A stretch of 38,001 nt of DNA from Candidatus Methanoperedens sp. (lineage in GTDB: Archaea > Halobacteriota > Methanosarcinia > Methanosarcinales > Methanoperedenaceae): assembly GCA_012026835.1 (NCBI GenBank), contig VEPN01000029.1, forward strand, positions 1 to 38,001, written 5' to 3'. Below the pieces are notes generated by a model. The model was not told the DNA's origin, ran no database searches, and was given only the letters and a program-made list of their open reading frames with translations. Every line of letters starts with the position of its first letter. Position 1 is the first letter of the stretch. Below, piece after piece: positions 2,768-32,524 of the stretch. A program made the position numbers and the translations under genes.

Positions 2768-5211
2768 TCCATCTTCTCCCTCAACTCCCTCGCCATTCTT
2801 CCCAACTCTTTTTTCCCATATATCCCTGCTATTAATTCCACGGCTTCAAGAGCCCTTGCTGCCTGGTCAAGATACCCGAGCATATCGCCCGTGTATGCAT
2901 AAACACCATACTGCTTCGTAAGCTGCGTGATAATCCCCTCGGGCGATAATCCTTCGGCGCATAACTCAATAACTCTTGCCGAGAACTTCTTCTCGGCGCA
3001 GCCGCAGTACGGCGAATCCTTGCATGTGCATGCCATGAACTCGCGTGCGAAGTCGAGCATGACGCGGCGCAGGTTCTCTTTCAGCTTTGAGAGTCCGTCT
3101 GCCGAGAAAACGATATCAAGACCCGCACCGAAAACTCTTGTTGGGATATCCGTTCCCAGGGAATCCGATAGCTGCGAAGCGTACCTGAAATACACAGCAT
3201 CCAGGGTCTCAAGTTCAATGACAATATCCAGCGGCTTGCGTCCCGCAAGTACAGCGTTTTTTATCAGGAAAGTCTGCTCCACGCTCAAAAAATGCGCGGC
3301 CACGATGCGTCCAAGTTCAGTCGGAGAAAAACCGGAATTTGTTTTTTCAATGAACCCGTACTCTCCAAGCTTATCCAGCATGTAATCAAGGTTCCCCTCG
3401 CCGAGCATCGATCCATTCATTTTTCCAAGATCCGAAAATTTATGGGCAACAACTATGTTGGAAAGGGTCTCTTCAAGCAGTTCATCCTCCCCGTAGTCCA
3501 CACCAAAATGCTCAAGCTCCCCCTTTAGCAGCCTGAATGCTATCTCATCCTCAGAGTCTCCTTTCCCGAACCTCTTTTCAGGGTCTGCAAGCAGTACCAC
3601 CACGCCCCTGTCATGGTAATCAGGCCTTCCCGCCCTCCCGAGCATCTGCTGGAACTCGCGCACCGTAAGCCATTCTATACCCATGGCAAGGGACTCAAAT
3701 ATCACCTGGGATGCAGGAAAATCCACACCTGCCGCAAGCGCCGCTGTGGTAACTACAACCGGAAGCTCCCCTTTTCCGAATTTTTCTTCCACCTTCTTTC
3801 TTTCTTGATATGAAAGCCCTGCATGGTAAGGCATGGCTTTTATCACAAGCCCTTTCGCAAGCACTTCACAATTGCGGCGCGAGTTTGTAAATACGATGGT
3901 CTGCCCCCTGAAACCCTTAGAGGATCTCTTATCGTATTCCTGCTGTGCAAGCCTCTCTATCAATCGTTTCTTCTCGTGTTCGGGCGCAAAGATAAGATGC
4001 CTATCGATAGGTACGGGCCGCTCCTCGAACTCGATAAGACCAGCTCCCAGCTTTTCAGCAAGCCATTGCGGTTTTCCAACAGTAGCTGAAAGATATATGA
4101 ACTGCGCGTCCGGCGCGATGAATTTCAAACGCGCAATAAGGCCATCAAGCCGGTGACCCCTTTCTTTATCTTCAAGCATATGTACTTCATCTATGACAAC
4201 TGTACCGATGCTCCCGAGCGTTTTACTTTTCTCCGACCTGAGGACAAAATCAATCCCTTCGTAGGTGCCTACGATTATATCTGATGATAATGAAGTCCGG
4301 ATTCCTCTTGTACCTTTTATTATCCTGCTTGTCCCGATGCGCAGTGAAGTTGTCGCGATTGAGGAATAGCGCTTCGTGAATTGCTCGTATTTCTGGTTTG
4401 CAAGCGCCACGAGAGGTACTAAGAAAAGCATCCTGCCTTTTTTGTTCATGATATTTTTAAGCCCTGCAAGTTCCCCGACCAGCGTTTTCCCTGTGGCCGT
4501 AGCCGAGACGACCAACTGGTTCTTCCCTTCAAGAAGCCCCGCGTTAATGGAAAGCGCCTGCACCGGCATCAATACTTCAAGCTGGTGGAGAAGTATCTTT
4601 TTAAGTTCATCGTGGACAGGCAGGTCTTTCACTTTAATTGAACAATCAACCCTGCTTGCCTCTATAGTATCAAATCTCGTCAGACCCGAATCCAGTTTTT
4701 CGGGGCTTAGCATTGCAAGCACCCTGTCAAGGTTCCTTGTTTTAAGTAATATATGAATAAGCCTTTCCTGCCCGTGTTTGCCCAGTTTTGCGGATTTTAT
4801 TTCCCTTAAGAGTTCTTTTTTGGCGCATTCTTCACATATATTTTCATTATGAAACCTGATGGAATTGGTATCGACAGTTGTATATCTGCCTGCAAGGAGG
4901 CATATGCGGCAGGTGTTCGCATACCCGTAATCCAGCTGATACGCTGATAAAAGTTCCTTGAATCCTGCTTCCGATACTTCATCCCCCTCTGCAATGAGAA
5001 CCTTGTCCGCAAGGCGCAGAAGTTCAATAAGCTCATCCGGCGCCCTGAATTCTTCTTTCTCTCCCTGTCTTATCCTGAACCTGCCTGCGCGGGCTCCTTT
5101 TGGGGTTTTCTTTAATGTCAGGATACCGTAAAAGATCGGCTCTTTAGAATTATCTTTGATCGGAAGGACTACAATATTTGATTTTTGCGGGTGAATAATT
5201 ACCGAAAGCAT
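2761..5211 (-). CDS. archaeal DEAD/DEAH-box helicase with zinc-binding N-domain
   Basis: Large (816 aa) superfamily 2 helicase, Ski2/Hel308-like in its core, presumably an ATP-driven remodeller of RNA or DNA. The N-terminal region (1-200) carries CRIC (101-104) and CEEC (126-129), a probable zinc site. The helicase core has Walker A SATATGKT (236-243), DEVH (341-344), SAT (375-377) and motif VI QMLGRAGRP (522-530). A C-terminal helical domain contains a second Cys cluster (CTCKDSPYCGC). The layout fits the widespread but uncharacterised archaeal helicases annotated with DUF5814, from memory. No RBS precedes the ATG; a TATA-like AATATTAATA about 35 nt upstream suggests a leaderless or nearly leaderless mRNA. 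The substrate cannot be read from the sequence. Confidence 0.9.
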   Translation of the reverse strand: MLSVIIHPQKSNIVVLPIKDNSKEPIFYGILTLKKTPKGARAGRFRIRQGEKEEFRAPDELIELLRLADKVLIAEGDEVSEAGFKELLSAYQLDYGYANTCRICLLAGRYTTVDTNSIRFHNENICEECAKKELLREIKSAKLGKHGQERLIHILLKTRNLDRVLAMLSPEKLDSGLTRFDTIEASRVDCSIKVKDLPVHDELKKILLHQLEVLMPVQALSINAGLLEGKNQLVVSATATGKTLVGELAGLKNIMNKKGRMLFLVPLVALANQKYEQFTKRYSSIATTSLRIGTSRIIKGTRGIRTSLSSDIIVGTYEGIDFVLRSEKSKTLGSIGTVVIDEVHMLEDKERGHRLDGLIARLKFIAPDAQFIYLSATVGKPQWLAEKLGAGLIEFEERPVPIDRHLIFAPEHEKKRLIERLAQQEYDKRSSKGFRGQTIVFTNSRRNCEVLAKGLVIKAMPYHAGLSYQERKKVEEKFGKGELPVVVTTAALAAGVDFPASQVIFESLAMGIEWLTVREFQQMLGRAGRPDYHDRGVVVLLADPEKRFGKGDSEDEIAFRLLKGELEHFGVDYGEDELLEETLSNIVVAHKFSDLGKMNGSMLGEGNLDYMLDKLGEYGFIEKTNSGFSPTELGRIVAAHFLSVEQTFLIKNAVLAGRKPLDIVIELETLDAVYFRYASQLSDSLGTDIPTRVFGAGLDIVFSADGLSKLKENLRRVMLDFAREFMACTCKDSPYCGCAEKKFSARVIELCAEGLSPEGIITQLTKQYGVYAYTGDMLGYLDQAARALEAVELIAGIYGKKELGRMARELREKMEK

Positions 5212-5322
5212 TCTGGTTTAGAATAAACGCATCATGTTATTAATATTGGCACAGGATAACCTGAACAGATGTTTCACAGCCCCTGGAACAAATAACTATT
5301 ATGGAAACTTTCAAATCCGGTT

Positions 5323-5403: not shown

Positions 5404-6501
5404 TCAGGCCACATATTCCAGAAATCCTTTCGTTGTATAGGAGACAGGCTTTCCATCTATATTACCGCTTACTTCATATGACCCTGATAATTCCCATATG
5501 ATCCTGTATCCACCGCTTTCAAGTGGTATTGGAATTGGCGTGAAGCGCTCTGCGGTAAATACGATATTGACTTTATTTTCTCCTGAAACTGCATCCAGCA
5601 CTGTGATCATCGGGAAAGGATACTCTGGATATGAGTTTACCATGATATCCCGTCGAATCTGCATTTCGCTGTCTTCAAATCTCACTATTATTTTTTTGTT
5701 CTTCCATATCTCAAGGACTGATCTATGTGATTCTGTATGGTTTCTATCTGTTGTGTTGCCAAAAACGAAAGAATAAGACCCTGTATCATCTCCTTTCAGG
5801 TTATTCTTTTTTTCGGAGGCCTGTCCCCAGTCCCATCCCACATTATCCTGCCATAGCCAGTATCCCCAATTGTGATCGTGGTAACCTCTAACGTTTTTCA
5901 GTTCGTAGATTTTTTCCAAAGCTGTTCCTTTATTGACAGTTAATGTTCCTGTAACTTTCATCCTGGGCGAAGCTACGAGCCAGTAGATCGACCTGCCGGG
6001 CTTAAAAGATGCATTGAAAACCGGAGCAGGATCAGTTATGGGTTTGAACAATGCGTCGAAAACCGTCTGTGCATCATTTGATTCAACATGTACCGAGTAA
6101 CCTTTTTCTGTCAGTGTAACATAGCTCCCTGATATTCTGACGGCTGGTGTCCTGTTTGACCATTCGGCCATTGTTACAGGATATAAGTCAATCGTGAGAT
6201 TTTCTTTAACAGGAGTGGAATAACTTAGCAGGACAAAGGCGATACTCTTTGAAGGATCATTTATATCCCCCTTTAAAGTAAGTGTAGTAATGAACGAAAG
6301 GTTCTGTTCTTCGTCAATTATATTGAAATAGTGCCATTCGTCGTATAACATGCTTCTTGGATCGCCTTTTTCAGGGGGATGGAATACATCTAAAACTGAG
6401 AGTTCGCGTATCAGGCTACCTTCTTTTGCGATAGCCAGATTTGAGGCTGCTGACAATAGTAATATTGCAGCTATCAGGATCAATATCGGTTTAAGTTTCA
6501 T
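5404..6501 (-). CDS. secreted AttH/CrtC-like lipocalin-fold protein
   Basis: Exported protein of about 365 residues. A Sec-type signal (MKLKPILILIAAILLLSAAS...AIA) is followed by a long beta-rich domain. The motif GYHDHNWGYW in mid-protein is the hallmark of the AttH/CrtC family (carotenoid hydratase-like, double lipocalin fold), and the N-terminal DEWHYFN and C-terminal beta strands agree with it. Known members hydrate carotenoids or bind lipids, but the substrate here is unknown and no carotenoid genes are nearby. A GTG at 6510 also opens the frame, but it lies inside the RBS (AGAGGTGA), so the ATG at 6501, five bases after that motif, is the better start. It lies 18 nt behind a small exported-peptide gene, probably in one transcript, and ends at a strong terminator. 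Confidence 0.75.
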   Translation of the reverse strand: MKLKPILILIAAILLLSAASNLAIAKEGSLIRELSVLDVFHPPEKGDPRSMLYDEWHYFNIIDEEQNLSFITTLTLKGDINDPSKSIAFVLLSYSTPVKENLTIDLYPVTMAEWSNRTPAVRISGSYVTLTEKGYSVHVESNDAQTVFDALFKPITDPAPVFNASFKPGRSIYWLVASPRMKVTGTLTVNKGTALEKIYELKNVRGYHDHNWGYWLWQDNVGWDWGQASEKKNNLKGDDTGSYSFVFGNTTDRNHTESHRSVLEIWKNKKIIVRFEDSEMQIRRDIMVNSYPEYPFPMITVLDAVSGENKVNIVFTAERFTPIPIPLESGGYRIIWELSGSYEVSGNIDGKPVSYTTKGFLEYVA

Positions 6502-6519
6502 TCTATTCACCTCTTAAGT

Positions 6520-6657
6520 TTATTTTATCGCTTCTACAGTATCAAATCCGGGCATTTCAAATATGGTTTCGTGGCTTGCCAGTGCGGGTGCTGTTAATGA
6601 CAGGATTACAGCACACATGATTACACATATTGTTATTATAGTCGCATTTCTGTTCAT
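6520..6657 (-). CDS. 45-residue exported peptide
   Basis: Short gene reading MNRNATIITICVIMCAVILS..., a basic start and hydrophobic core ending TAPALA, then about 17 residues (SHETIFEMPGFDTVEAIK). The A-x-A cut site suggests a Sec signal peptide releasing a tiny acidic product. The stop lies 18 nt before the AttH/CrtC-like start, so the two are probably co-transcribed. On the minus strand CTATAAATC (near 6711-6719) is a likely TATA box, giving a leader of about 30 nt. No RBS is evident. Function unknown; a secreted cofactor or chaperone of the next gene, or a leader peptide, are possibilities. Confidence 0.5.
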   Translation of the reverse strand: MNRNATIITICVIMCAVILSLTAPALASHETIFEMPGFDTVEAIK

Positions 6658-6726: not shown

Positions 6727-6801
6727 TCATCTAATAATTTTGTCCCATGACCAATTGTAACTGTTTTTGCTGAAACTTTGAATATTCATATCTTTCTTCA
6801 T
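6727..6801 (-). CDS. possible 24-codon peptide (MKKDMNIQSF...)
   Basis: Minus-strand frame MKKDMNIQSFSKNSYNWSWD plus four residues, ending TGA, 65 nt downstream of the radical SAM stop. It is rich in Asn, Ser and aromatic residues and has a weak purine run before the ATG. It could be a second modified-peptide substrate or simply chance in A+T-rich DNA. I lean to chance without homologues. Confidence 0.2.
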   Translation of the reverse strand: MKKDMNIQSFSKNSYNWSWDKIIR

Positions 6802-6855: not shown

Positions 6856-6869
6856 AGTATAGCGATTAA
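6856..6869 (-). repeat. 14-bp direct repeat across the maturase stop codon (copy 1)
   Basis: AGTATAGCGATTAA here is identical to 8216-8229. In both places it holds the TAA stop of the minus-strand gene and the next ten bases (TCGCTATACT). A 10-bp part, ATAGCGATTA, recurs at 6698-6707. Confidence 0.7.
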
Positions 6870-8143
6870 GAATAGAAATAAGGAGTAATAGACATATCTT
6901 TACTTGTGCATTTACGCACTCCGGTTTTGGCATAATAACGAGTACATCCGCCATAACAGATTGGTAAATAATAGCAATCCCTGCATTTTTCATCCTTAAA
7001 TGGATTTGATTTTTGATACCATTTTGATATATGTGTTATATTAAATTGTAACATACCTGCCTTATTTATCTGGCCAATATTTGCCGTTTCTGTTGAAATA
7101 TCATTTAAACATTTCCATATTTTCAGATCAGGGGTAACATAAAAAAAATTAACTCCACCAGCAGATTCACAATGTTGCAGGTAATAAGTGCTCTTGACTA
7201 TATTAAATCCATAATTTTTCGCTTCATCATAAAACTTTTTCAAATCAAAAATTGTATTACTATTAGCTTCACCGAAGTGACTGGTTGTATAGATTGGCCT
7301 GAATATAATATTTATTTTTCCCCTCTCTTCCAAATTAAATGACTCTAAAATAGGCCTGATGTGATCAATATTTTGGTTTAATAAATTTACTCGCAAAATG
7401 AAATGAGTATTCGTATGCGTTTTAATGCCATATTGTATTGCTGCTTTAAAATTATTAACTATTATATCAAAGGTTACTCTATTATTATGCAAAATGCGAA
7501 GCTTGTTATGAACTTCCTTATTGCCATCCAATGTAACTTGAAGAGATATACAATTATATTTAAATAATGCGCTTACCGTATCTTTATCCAATAAGAAGCC
7601 ATTTGTTACAATATTAATACTCAAATCATATCCGTAGTTCTTACTTTGCATGGATACATAGTCCAAATAAGAGAACAGTTCGTTCTTTTTTAAAAGTGGT
7701 TCTCCACCAAATAAACTAATATGTACTCTCTTTCTATTACAAAAATTCTCATTAGCAAAATTTCTTAAGATATCAAAATAATCTTTAACTTCATCATCTT
7801 CTTTTTCATATCCTGCTTCAAAACAATATGGGCATTTAAAATTACATTTAAATGTTGGCACTAAAACAACATTGATTTCGTCTGTTCGGAAATAATTTGC
7901 GTTATATAAATATTCAATACGTTCGAGTTCGTTTATATTATCGGATAAAATAAAACCGTTTTTGATCAGAATATCTTGATAATTCTTATTTTCCCCTATA
8001 CAAGGATTTTTTTCATTTAATATGCTCTTTATTCTTTTTAACTCAGTTCTTTTGACTTTGATGCATGCTCTGCTAAATGAATTAAATAAGAATATGGAAT
8101 CATTTTCCCTGAAAAATTTGTTATATCTGCTATCTCTATACAT
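6866..8143 (-). CDS. radical SAM/SPASM peptide maturase
   Basis: Predicted cytoplasmic enzyme (425 aa) that installs thioether or related crosslinks in a ribosomal peptide. An N-terminal region of about 85 residues may bind a leader peptide. The radical SAM core has C100-x3-C104-x2-C107 (CNFKCPYC) and GGEP at 146-149. The C-terminal SPASM domain has C325, C345, then C387-x2-C390-x5-C396-x3-C400 and C412, the complete spacing for two auxiliary Fe-S clusters. SPASM enzymes with such architecture mature sactipeptides, ranthipeptides, PQQ and similar products. GGAG precedes the ATG. A 42-codon Cys-rich gene lies 82 nt upstream on the same strand and is the obvious substrate. Base composition is clearly more A+T-rich than tyrS or the helicase, suggesting transfer. 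No protease or exporter adjoins it, and an enzyme-activating maturase role cannot be excluded. Confidence 0.85.
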   Translation of the reverse strand: MYRDSRYNKFFRENDSIFLFNSFSRACIKVKRTELKRIKSILNEKNPCIGENKNYQDILIKNGFILSDNINELERIEYLYNANYFRTDEINVVLVPTFKCNFKCPYCFEAGYEKEDDEVKDYFDILRNFANENFCNRKRVHISLFGGEPLLKKNELFSYLDYVSMQSKNYGYDLSINIVTNGFLLDKDTVSALFKYNCISLQVTLDGNKEVHNKLRILHNNRVTFDIIVNNFKAAIQYGIKTHTNTHFILRVNLLNQNIDHIRPILESFNLEERGKINIIFRPIYTTSHFGEANSNTIFDLKKFYDEAKNYGFNIVKSTYYLQHCESAGGVNFFYVTPDLKIWKCLNDISTETANIGQINKAGMLQFNITHISKWYQKSNPFKDEKCRDCYYLPICYGGCTRYYAKTGVRKCTSKDMSITPYFYS

Positions 8144-8215
8144 ATCTCCATCTTAATTTTATAGAAATAATGTTAAAGTCAAACGCCGGGCACACCCAAC
8201 CGCACAGAGCTGTGG

Positions 8216-8229
8216 AGTATAGCGATTAA
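8216..8229 (-). repeat. 14-bp direct repeat across the precursor stop codon (copy 2)
   Basis: Same AGTATAGCGATTAA as at 6856-6869, again carrying the TAA stop. Beyond it both flanks reach a similar G+C-rich block (CGCCGGGCAC at 8184-8193; CGGCGGGCAC near 6811-6820), so the whole 3' flank seems duplicated. A 12-nt palindrome CACAGAGCTGTG (8203-8214) lies between the precursor and maturase genes. Confidence 0.65.
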
Positions 8230-8354
8230 TACTTAGGGCAATTTCCTGTACAAGTACACGCGTCCAAAATCAATTTTTGGGTTAGAATAAGTTCAGTTGC
8301 CTCAGTTTTAATCACGGCTTCATTAATAATCTCTATAATACTCTCATCTTCCAT
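8226..8354 (-). CDS. putative Cys-rich RiPP precursor peptide
   Basis: A 42-residue peptide starting MEDESIIEIINEAVIK and ending ACTCTGNCPKY, with all three cysteines (33, 35, 39) in the last ten residues. An acidic/aliphatic amphipathic leader followed by a short Cys/Thr/Gly core is the usual plan of ranthipeptide or sactipeptide precursors. The next gene on the strand is a complete radical SAM/SPASM enzyme, 82 nt away. A TATA box centred 27 nt before the ATG predicts a leaderless mRNA. The region has the same A+T-rich composition as the maturase gene. The pairing is inference from position and composition; the product, crosslink type and function are unknown. A metal-binding or signalling peptide, or a small antimicrobial, would all fit. 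Confidence 0.65.
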   Translation of the reverse strand: MEDESIIEIINEAVIKTEATELILTQKLILDACTCTGNCPKY

Positions 8355-8374
8355 GTATTTAATATACTTTTTTG

Positions 8375-8386
8375 GTTATTTATAGC
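8375..8386 (-). promoter_or_regulatory. TATA box of the RiPP cassette
   Basis: Minus strand reads GCTATAAATAAC with purine-rich AAAAGCAAA just upstream (possible BRE). Its centre is about 27 nt from the precursor ATG at 8354, the distance expected for a leaderless archaeal transcript. Confidence 0.6.
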
Positions 8387-8571
8387 TTTGCTTTTAAAAA
8401 GTTCAAAAGCACAATTGCAGATGCGGTAGCTCCCTGTTTCAATATCTTAGCCATATGCACCAACCGGGCCACGAGTTCCCTTTGCCACAATATACCTGCG
8501 GAATGATTATCTGTGTTTAATTCTTTATAATGCTTTGCATTTTTATCTGTTGCAAGTAAACATATCGCAGG
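8380..8571 (-). pseudogene. open frame without a usable start, possible gene remnant
   Basis: A minus-strand frame is open for about 63 codons and reads protein-like (ATDKNAKHYKELNTDNHSAG, then WQRELVARLVHMAKILKQGA), ending at a TAA inside the precursor's TATA box. Its only ATG would give 24 residues. It may be the decayed 3' end of an older gene. No family recognised. Confidence 0.2.
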
Positions 8572-29754: not shown

Positions 29755-30684
29755 TTATTTGCCGATATAAATCTCAGCGTACTCTTTATTACCCTTTTCC
29801 TCTATCTCCACATCCACACCTGCTTCTTTTGCCCAGAACTGTATATTCTCAGGCGCCGATGGGTCATCGGTTATCACTTTCAGGATATCCCCTGCTTTCA
29901 TTTTATCAAGCTCCTTCTTTGCAATGATAAGAGGATAGGGACACCGCTCATTCCTGAGATCCAGAACACAGGATGGAGTGCGTCTGTCGAGTATATGACC
30001 AAGGGCTCTTACCCTGTGCTTATCAACCCCGTTCAGGAATGCAGACCGCAGAAGAGATATCGTATCAAAAAATAACTGGGAATCGCGATCTATCTTCTGG
30101 GAGAATTTCAATACATCATAATCTCCCTTTCTCAGGACAACGAGCTGGTCTGCCAGATACGTAGCTTCGTATAAGTCATGGGTTACATAAATCACGGTCT
30201 TTCCCTCAAATATCTTCCTTGCCAGTTCCTGAAGCTTCTCCCTGGTCAAATAATCAAGGGCTGAGAACGGCTCATCACAGAGTATGATATCCGCACCGGA
30301 TGCAATCGCCCTTGCAAGCGCAATCCTCTGTACCTGGCCGCCGCTTAAGCTTCGCGCATAGGCATATCTGGAAACGCCATGCAATTCAACCATTTCCAGC
30401 AGGTTATTTATGTCTGCATCTTTATTTGCGATATATATATTCTGCTCAACGTTCAGCCATGGAACCATCTGGTTGGCCTGCGGAATGTAAGCTACCTTGT
30501 CGTTCAATGTGATATTGCCCTGATGATTAACCTCTCCCAGCAGGCATTTTAACAGTGAGGACTTGCCAACGCCGCTTCTTCCGATCACGCATGTGAACTG
30601 GTTATCAGCTTCAAAGGTTATATCTTCCAGGACGCTTTTGTTTCCAAAGCTGACCCTCAGGTTTTCCACTTTCAATTTTGCCAT
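29755..30684 (-). CDS. sulfonate-type ABC ATPase fused to a TusA domain
   Basis: A 309-residue two-domain protein. Residues 1-215 are an ABC ATPase of the SsuB/TauB group: Walker A GRSGVGKS (35-42), signature LSGGQ (113-117), Walker B ILCDEP (134-139). Residues about 238-309 are a TusA/SirA sulfur-carrier domain with C248-P-Y-P251 and the following ELDKMKAGDILKV. TusA proteins carry persulfide sulfur. Fusion to an importer ATPase suggests that uptake of a sulfur compound is tied to sulfur transfer or sensed by it. The frame opens from a TTG at 30693, but the ATG at 30684 fits the ATPase start. It overlaps the permease gene by 13 bases. Confidence 0.85.
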   Translation of the reverse strand: MAKLKVENLRVSFGNKSVLEDITFEADNQFTCVIGRSGVGKSSLLKCLLGEVNHQGNITLNDKVAYIPQANQMVPWLNVEQNIYIANKDADINNLLEMVELHGVSRYAYARSLSGGQVQRIALARAIASGADIILCDEPFSALDYLTREKLQELARKIFEGKTVIYVTHDLYEATYLADQLVVLRKGDYDVLKFSQKIDRDSQLFFDTISLLRSAFLNGVDKHRVRALGHILDRRTPSCVLDLRNERCPYPLIIAKKELDKMKAGDILKVITDDPSAPENIQFWAKEAGVDVEIEEKGNKEYAEIYIGK

Positions 30685-31448
30685 GCATACCAACTCTGTG
30701 CTATTCGCAAAACGAAATCAAAAGCATACCCGGTAAGACCGATAAGAACCATCCCTCCCACCACCTGGGTGGTGTTCAGGAGCATCCTCCCTTCCTCTAT
30801 CATGTATCCAAGCCCGACATCAGAAGCTATAAGCTCGGCGGCCACAAGCGACATCCACGCAACGCCAAATCCCAGCCTGATACTATGAATAAAACCCGGG
30901 GTCAGGCCGAGTACGTAACCATAATAAGCAGCCTTTAATTTCGAACTGGTGTTGATGCTGATGAGCTTCAGGCTCTCTTTCGGGAGGTTCTGGTACGCGC
31001 TAAAAAGGCTCAGGAACATGGGGAAAAAGCCACCATAGATTATGATATAAGCCTTAGAAGATTCTCCTATCCCGAACCAGATAATGGCCAAAGGGATCCA
31101 GGCAATGGGAGGGATGAATCTCAGGGTATTGGCAAGCACGTTCAGGACGCTGTGCGCTTTTGATGATGCTATTCCAGCCACCAGTAAAGAAACAGAGAGA
31201 ACTGTCGCAATTGAAAGTCCAACCATCACTCTTTCAAAACTGATGCTCCAGTGCCTCAAAATATCCGGCTCCCAGAGGTATCGCGCTGTCTTAAGGGGAC
31301 TGGTTACTATAAATTCGGATGACAGCCTGCTCTCATATATACCCTGCCAGGCCGCCAGCAAAAATGTGATTATAACAATTTCAGGGATCAGGTTCTGGAA
31401 TACCGGCTTGATTCTCAGGAGATGTTCCTGATTCCTGCCCTCGCTCAT
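30672..31448 (-). CDS. ABC transporter permease, SsuC/TauC-like
   Basis: A 258-residue membrane subunit with six or so helices and the EAA-like loop SINTSSKLKAAYYGYVLGLT facing the ATPase. The RFIPPIAWIPLAIIWFGIGE segment is typical of sulfonate, taurine, nitrate and pyrimidine-type importers. It overlaps the binding-protein gene upstream by four bases and the ATPase gene by 13, so all three are coupled. Confidence 0.88.
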   Translation of the reverse strand: MSEGRNQEHLLRIKPVFQNLIPEIVIITFLLAAWQGIYESRLSSEFIVTSPLKTARYLWEPDILRHWSISFERVMVGLSIATVLSVSLLVAGIASSKAHSVLNVLANTLRFIPPIAWIPLAIIWFGIGESSKAYIIIYGGFFPMFLSLFSAYQNLPKESLKLISINTSSKLKAAYYGYVLGLTPGFIHSIRLGFGVAWMSLVAAELIASDVGLGYMIEEGRMLLNTTQVVGGMVLIGLTGYAFDFVLRIAQSWYAWQN

Positions 31449-32524
31449 ACAGGTGATTCCTCAAGCCTGTATTTTTTGGGATTTGAGAGAACTTCCTTTA
31501 CGAGCTCACGTTTTATCTTTGCCTTTGCCTCGCTCCATATTGCAGACTGCGGGACTTTTCCAAGAGTTTTTAGCAATTCGAATTCTTCTTTTAATATTCC
31601 ACCATCGTCATAATATTTGTCTTCTATGTAAATTGAGCCGGGCAATCCATCAGAGACTATTTTATCGTACTCTTCAACAGTCAATCCAAGGGAACTGCCT
31701 TTAAGCGCCGTACCTGCATCGATTGCCCATCCGCTGGTTCTGTCCAGGTTTTCCTGGCTTTTCTGGATATATTTTATCGCCCTGATCTCTGACGCTATGA
31801 TATGTTTTAAAGCTTCAGGATTGGCTTTTGCAAAATCTCCTTTGGCATAGAGATAGCCGCTTGAACGCCCGCTGTGTATCCGTTTAAATGAAGGGAAGTT
31901 TTTGATGGCCAGCGTTGGTGTGGGTTCCCATGCGGAAAATGCATCTATCTCATTGTTTTCCAGTGCCTGCGGCATGCTCGGCACGTCAAGCTGGACCAGT
32001 GTTACGTCCTTTTCTGATATATTATTCTGCGAAAGTGTTTTTAAAAGGAAATAATGGGCGTTGGAGCCGAATGCATAGCCTATCTTTTTACCTTTTAACT
32101 GTGCCACAGTGTCATAGTTCTTTGAAATTATCCATACCCTTCCGCCTTCAATCAACGAAAAAACTTCGACATCCAGGTTTGCTATTACTGTAGTAGTTGG
32201 CATGTCGCCTCCAAGCCCAAACTCCAGTCCTTCTTCGCCTCTTGCCTGTAAAGCAACGTTCACATCCGCACCTTTAAGAAACGGACGCCATTTAATTTCA
32301 AGCCCGAGTTTCTTAAATTCTTCTACAAGAGTTTTATCCTTTCTCATAACCTCTGTAATGCTTGCAGGTCCTGTCCAGAGAGGTTGGTAGCCGAAGTCGA
32401 TAGTCTTTAAAGCGACGGGTATTTCTTCTTTTATCTGGGCACCTTTGTTTGCTGCAAAGTATCCAAGCCCTGCAAGGACAATTATGAGTGCAACGCCAAA
32501 TATCTTAATGTTAGAGTTTATCAA
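31445..32524 (-). CDS. ABC substrate-binding protein, SsuA/NMT1-like
   Basis: A 359-residue exported binding protein. Its N-terminal hydrophobic segment lacks a lipobox cysteine, so it may stay as a membrane anchor, as usual in archaea. The sequence shows GYQPLWTGPASITEV, GGDMPTTTVIANLDVEV, KKIGYAFGSNAHYFL and DAFSAWEPTPTLAI, the pattern of the NMT1/SsuA/TauA group. The start is a TTG at 32524 behind AGGTGA. The ligand is not readable; a sulfonate or other organosulfur compound fits the fused TusA domain, but thiamine precursors or nitrate-like ligands occur in relatives. Confidence 0.85.
   Translation of the reverse strand: MINSNIKIFGVALIIVLAGLGYFAANKGAQIKEEIPVALKTIDFGYQPLWTGPASITEVMRKDKTLVEEFKKLGLEIKWRPFLKGADVNVALQARGEEGLEFGLGGDMPTTTVIANLDVEVFSLIEGGRVWIISKNYDTVAQLKGKKIGYAFGSNAHYFLLKTLSQNNISEKDVTLVQLDVPSMPQALENNEIDAFSAWEPTPTLAIKNFPSFKRIHSGRSSGYLYAKGDFAKANPEALKHIIASEIRAIKYIQKSQENLDRTSGWAIDAGTALKGSSLGLTVEEYDKIVSDGLPGSIYIEDKYYDDGGILKEEFELLKTLGKVPQSAIWSEAKAKIKRELVKEVLSNPKKYRLEESPV

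Follow-up and report, generated by a model that had tools for sequence, protein, structure and literature searches.

A candidate two-gene RiPP cassette with a radical SAM/SPASM maturase in Candidatus Methanoperedens and its counterparts in DPANN archaea

Introduction

Ranthipeptide maturases are among the described systems closest to the locus studied here. The ranthipeptide maturase CteB links Cys to Thr (PMC8326336), and other members of the group link Cys to Asn or to Asp/Glu at non-alpha carbons (PMC8326336, PMC9413430). Clusters of the ranthipeptide and sactipeptide type have already been predicted in numbers in archaea, DPANN included (PMC12144867). According to the same 2025 survey, functional characterization of archaeal RiPP clusters is still limited, and only lanthipeptides are named as validated (PMC12144867).

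Here we analyze a pair of genes in a 38,001-nt stretch of DNA from Candidatus Methanoperedens sp., referred to as a whole as the window. Its conservation as a two-gene unit in three archaea of two distant groups makes it very probable that the pair is a genuine modified-peptide (RiPP) system, without a name so far, that has spread by gene transfer. The reading that we prefer combines a leaderless precursor, a SPASM maturase, thioether links of the ranthipeptide type and horizontal acquisition, and we give it as a whole a probability of about 0.72. As the cassette consists of two genes in ~1.5 kb, is complete, is conserved across two archaeal phyla and is easy to express, it would be a convenient system in which to test for thioether peptides in archaea.

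Results and Discussion

The precursor gene and its surroundings

The features of the cassette, in the direction of transcription, are:

8377..8384, minus strand: TATA box TATAAATA, from −30 to −23 relative to the ATG of the peptide
8226..8354, minus strand: precursor peptide gene, 42 aa, MEDESIIEIINEAVIKTEATELILTQKLILDACTCTGNCPKY
8216..8229, minus strand: first copy of the direct repeat TTAATCGCTATACT (14 nt), which overlaps the stop codon of the precursor
8144..8225, minus strand: spacer of 82 nt between precursor and maturase, recognizably similar to the DPANN spacers
6866..8143, minus strand: radical SAM/SPASM peptide maturase, 425 aa, uninterrupted, with an RRE-like N-terminus (residues 1–85)
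6856..6869, minus strand: second copy of the 14-nt direct repeat, overlapping the maturase stop codon

The sequence-only reading of this DNA had proposed a 42-codon gene with three Cys in its last ten residues, lying 82 nt upstream of a complete radical SAM/SPASM enzyme on the same strand and preceded by a TATA box 27 nt before its ATG. All of these elements were recovered: the Cys are residues 33, 35 and 39, the gap and the intact enzyme frame are as listed, and the TATA box, read from the sequence, is centered ~27 nt before the ATG. Its position suggests a leaderless transcript. Reading further 5′ of the ATG revealed no in-frame start, as a TAA precedes it. The C-terminal end of the peptide, LDACTCTGNCPKY, approximates the core, and we infer a leader of about residues 1–30 that includes the INEA segment.

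As the earlier reading had supposed, no known family matched the peptide: the NCBIfam and Pfam models gave none, and the model of the nitrile-hydratase-like (NHLP) leader (TIGR03793) matched neither the window precursor nor its two DPANN homologues. Taken alone, such a small Cys-tailed frame in front of a gene is weak evidence and not improbable by chance: among 300 random sequences of 500 nt with matching composition, 14 (~5%) contain one.

Two other candidate elements were rejected. A structured RNA between the two genes found no match in Rfam, and the folding energies are ordinary. Both exact copies of the direct repeat are followed by GTGCCCG(G/C)CG, and a genome-wide element was dismissed because the genome has only these two copies within one mismatch.

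The maturase and the choice among chemistries

The enzyme carries the radical SAM motif CxxxCxxC (C100/C104/C107) and seven SPASM Cys (C325, C345, C387, C390, C396, C400 and C412) in the arrangement C..C..CX2CX5CX3C..C, and these ligands are invariant or nearly so among 11 homologues. It scores far below the equivalog cut-off of every named NCBIfam maturase family, the best HMMs being CefB, TIGR04463, Clo7bot, geopeptide, PapB and SCIFF. Identity as a viperin was rejected, as the pVip model matches only the radical SAM core, and weakly.

An AlphaFold2 model built from 14 sequences reached a mean pLDDT of 69, a moderate confidence that falls to ~43–61 at the N-terminus; an earlier model (three sequences, pLDDT 50) was discarded. 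Residues 8–81, within that low-scoring part, are modeled as three strands followed by three helices (b-b-b-a-a-a), as in an RRE. A fold search of the PDB placed the model closest to CteB (5WHY, E 6e-19), followed by SuiB and sulfatase maturases, and a profile search of the PDB likewise gave CteB (5WHY/5WGG) as the best match.

We infer thioether chemistry from the company that the enzyme keeps, namely its relatives CefB, TIGR04463, Clo7bot, PapB and CteB. The conserved Asp31, Thr36 and Asn38 of the precursor are residues of kinds that have been reported to accept the link in ranthipeptides (PMC8326336, PMC9413430), which is suggestive only. From sequence, thioether formation is indistinguishable from other chemistry of SPASM enzymes. 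One fold and one SPASM domain carry out several reactions, the structures of SuiB (C–C bond formation) and of sulfatase maturases match too, and the enzyme gives scores with the dynobactin, YhhB and sactipeptide models as well. The pair could thus be genuine and yet make Calpha thioethers (sactipeptide), C–C or cyclophane crosslinks or epimerized residues, with the Cys serving as metal ligands or in disulfides. We regard this as unlikely, though plausible enough to keep in mind, since the dynobactin, YhhB and sactipeptide scores are weaker, the top models and the fold are those of thioether-forming or Cys-rich-peptide maturases, and the conserved core is built around Cys.

Orthologous pairs in two DPANN archaea

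A scan of ~85,000 species genomes, seeded on exact 8-residue stretches and therefore liable to miss more diverged orthologues, revealed two orthologous maturases, both from DPANN archaea and 73% identical to that of the window: one in a Nanoarchaeota MAG (L013) and one in a Woesearchaeota MAG (L014). Homologous precursors lie directly upstream, in the same position and orientation:

L013, 1760-2002: DPANN precursor
L014, 5642-5896: DPANN precursor

The pairing of a short precursor gene with an adjacent modifying enzyme is thus kept in three of three orthologous loci. As the two DPANN examples are closely related, this amounts effectively to evidence from two lineages. The DPANN precursors have 80 or 84 codons, and the peptide of the window can be aligned with their C-terminal half (INEA(V/M)V...TIELTPTRRLGLDACGCTGNGSC in DPANN versus INEAVIKTEATELILTQKLILDACTCTGNC in the window; BLASTP of the window precursor against that of L013, 57% over 35 residues, E 1e-13). 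INEA, EL, T, L and LDAC-x-CTGN are invariant across the three peptides, and the TIELTPTRRLGLDACGCTGNGSC stretch is identical between the two DPANN precursors. The last Cys is spaced differently (CxCx3C versus CxCx5C), and the DPANN core has an N-x-x-C motif where that of the window has N-C.

Comparison of the window with the DPANN copies shows strong purifying selection on the maturase (dN/dS ~0.16–0.17) and faster evolution of the precursor (~0.47 against the window copy). The DPANN precursors alone have an N-terminal extension, which between the two DPANN copies shows no sign of purifying selection, so that the start of the precursor is uncertain in either the window or DPANN.

The conservation bears directly on the possibility that the peptide ORF is a chance frame and the enzyme an orphan SPASM protein with another substrate. 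The gene is very small, and the ~5% of random upstream stretches with a comparable ORF would permit such an accident, but homologous in-frame precursors with the same core stand in the same place in both other loci. Their conservation with the enzyme takes the precursor beyond chance and largely refutes this explanation, to which we give hardly any credence. The sequence-only reading had held that homologous maturases without a peptide nearby would speak against it; both orthologues have one, which supports its proposal of an undescribed archaeal RiPP pair.

Distribution beyond the three loci

Neither a sample of 371 genomes from the DPANN phylum nor 353 genomes from the order to which the two DPANN matches belong yielded another orthologue in profile searches, and the precursor profile detected none in 393 Halobacteriota. 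Of 150 relatives of the window genome, eight, not counting the window's own, have maturases, all of them distant (26–32%). Several of these have other Cys-rich peptides next to them, one of which, in the family of the large-genome relatives, is an NHLP-leader precursor that ends GGCIGCDGVGGCGFCECKSSIG. In two congeners other Cys-containing short frames lie beside the distant maturase. No homology was detectable between the window precursor and the one next to the distant maturase of the congener G024.

Six large-genome relatives of the same order (L005, L007–L010 and L012) encode a Clo7bot-like SPASM maturase, the frame of which contains one TAG in L007. Several of these enzymes adjoin NHLP-leader precursors with the conserved core GGCxGCDGVGGCGFCEC, and such pairs are a separate RiPP family.

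Carriage by a virus or plasmid was rejected, as viral contigs, plasmids and phages yielded no orthologue. Plasmids and phages hold only distant maturases (30% or less) without a precursor match, and the matches to the DAC-x-CTGN pattern in viral contigs are unrelated frames.

Acquisition of the cassette

Two further features mark the surroundings of the cassette:

8407..8408, no strand assigned: TyrRS-side junction of the acquired segment; from 8408 on, the sequence is again homologous to the closest relative (G011)
6756..6793, minus strand: transposon-end relic of 38 nt, 72 nt beyond the maturase stop

The greater A+T-richness of both genes relative to their neighbors, already remarked on in the earlier reading, is borne out by a GC content of 29.6% in the segment 6866-8407 versus 42.1% in the whole window, and by a GC3 of 24.5% in the maturase versus 51–56% in the flanking TyrRS and helicase genes. 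In several congeners ~80 nt separate the DUF5814 helicase from TyrRS, versus 3.4 kb in the window. Next to its TyrRS gene, G011, the nearest relative (TyrRS 91%), carries a small membrane-protein gene (MAKILKQRATASAIVL...) in intact form; the window copy (MAKILK...) ends after ~15 codons at the junction, where the cassette begins, and its remainder was not found elsewhere in the window's genome. The contrast in GC and GC3, the difference in gap length and the gene cut at the junction identify the cassette as foreign, and it was very probably acquired horizontally. The TATA box of the precursor sits within the acquired segment.

The DPANN loci have 32% GC and a GC3 of 15–17%. The resemblance in composition indicates, and does not prove, that the donor was probably an AT-rich DPANN-like archaeon. 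Synonymous divergence between the window and DPANN copies is ~0.9, hence the transfer was not recent. A transfer of the pair between DPANN and a far larger archaeon would be a case in which specialized-metabolite genes crossed from one such group to the other.

The two DPANN copies are 95% alike, versus 87% for a universal protein of the same genomes that, judging from its sequence, we take to be TFS. As they also lie in different contexts, the unit is probably mobile within DPANN too. Their cassettes are circularly permuted, with junctions that agree within 3 nt: in L013 (1676-3772) precursor and maturase are followed by a 65-aa ORF, and in L014 (5184-7292) the 65-aa ORF comes first. This arrangement points to a circular intermediate or to a tandem copy that has since been lost. 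The 65-aa ORF was rejected as a necessary third component, being missing from the window. On either side of each DPANN cassette lie partial duplicates of neighboring genes, which exceed transposon target-site duplications in length:

L013, 1463-1621 / 3846-4113: flanking partial duplicates
L014, 4432-4649 / 7520-7733 and 5190-5268 / 7728-7806: flanking partial duplicates

A bolder version would make the pair a minimal autonomous mobile RiPP module that passes between DPANN and larger archaea, in DPANN possibly through a circular intermediate, and whose thioether peptide serves inter-archaeal signaling or antagonism, possibly between DPANN and host; we consider this a long shot.

The transposon end at 6756-6793, presumably of the IS256 type judging from the sequence of the ORF rather than from a family search, is also found next to a transposase-like ORF in G000 and, in G011, close to the ends of contigs. 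The same inserted block holds a 45-aa ORF with a signal-like N-terminus (6520-6657, minus strand) and a secreted-looking 368-aa protein without a Pfam match (5404-6510, minus strand), which has 57–59% relatives in other genomes of the order. Elsewhere in the window, an ABC transporter ATPase with a fused C-terminal TusA sulfurtransferase domain (29758-30693, minus strand) adjoins permease-like and substrate-binding-protein-like ORFs (30672-32524).

Proposed mechanism

In the mechanism that we propose, a transcript, probably leaderless, would yield the 42-aa precursor, the N-terminal two thirds of which (INEA...EL) would act as the leader and be bound by the RRE-like N-terminal domain of the maturase. 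The enzyme would use SAM and two auxiliary Fe–S clusters, the clusters binding the Cys thiolates, and would join the Cys thiols of the DACxCTGN(x)C core to carbon atoms of neighboring residues. The acceptors would most likely be carbons other than the alpha carbon in the conserved Asp, Thr or Asn, giving thioethers of the ranthipeptide type. Each link would cost 2 Da, and at most three could form. No protease, exporter or immunity gene lies within the locus, and release would depend on a host protease and an exporter encoded outside it.

The near-constant core favors one defined product over a diversifying bacteriocin; a role in signaling or antagonism or as a cofactor-like product is possible. 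The same constancy across phyla, unlike the variable bacteriocins, would also suit a small metal- or redox-binding protein (metallothionein-like) or a PQQ- or mycofactocin-like precursor from which the maturase builds a cofactor, as would the CxC motif and loci devoid of exporter and immunity genes. Against this, the pair is not accompanied by an oxidoreductase or by a partner that uses a cofactor, and the distribution is patchy and mobile, which leaves a metal-binding or cofactor role distinctly unlikely.

Comparison with known systems

By HMM, the maturase is closest to CefB, the Cys-every-fifth peptide maturase (NF038107; 1.2e-53 over residues 5–401), by name an enzyme for Cys-rich peptides, but at 182.6 versus 600 bits it misses the cut-off, and its precursor has a short CxCx3-5C tail instead of a Cys at every fifth residue. 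TIGR04463 and Clo7bot (TIGR04334) score comparably (1.8e-53 and 2.1e-47) and share the domain layout, and their cut-offs are missed as well (181.9 versus 525 and 161.7 versus 600 bits). Clo7bot is also the best HMM for the distant relatives in the same order, whose precursors differ, one (L007) having the NHLP leader.

The closest structural match, CteB of the SCIFF system (TIGR03974), combines an RRE with radical SAM and SPASM parts, a layout that the maturase with its RRE-like N-terminus would resemble, but is only ~20% identical; the SCIFF model gives 84.7 versus 425 bits, and the SCIFF precursor holds six Cys in 45 residues versus three in that of the window. PapB/freyrasin and NxxcA-type systems form thioethers from Cys to Asp/Glu or Asn, and the DPANN core shares their N-x-x-C motif; the window maturase reaches 94 versus 340 bits for PapB, and the core lacks the CX3D/E motif.

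The novelty claimed by the sequence-only reading therefore needs to be narrowed. Radical SAM-modified RiPPs, with DPANN clusters among them, have already been predicted across archaea, so the kind is known (PMC12144867), but the precursor and maturase families appear to be unnamed. By analogy with these systems, precursor and maturase probably represent a new family of thioether-forming RiPPs of the ranthipeptide type.
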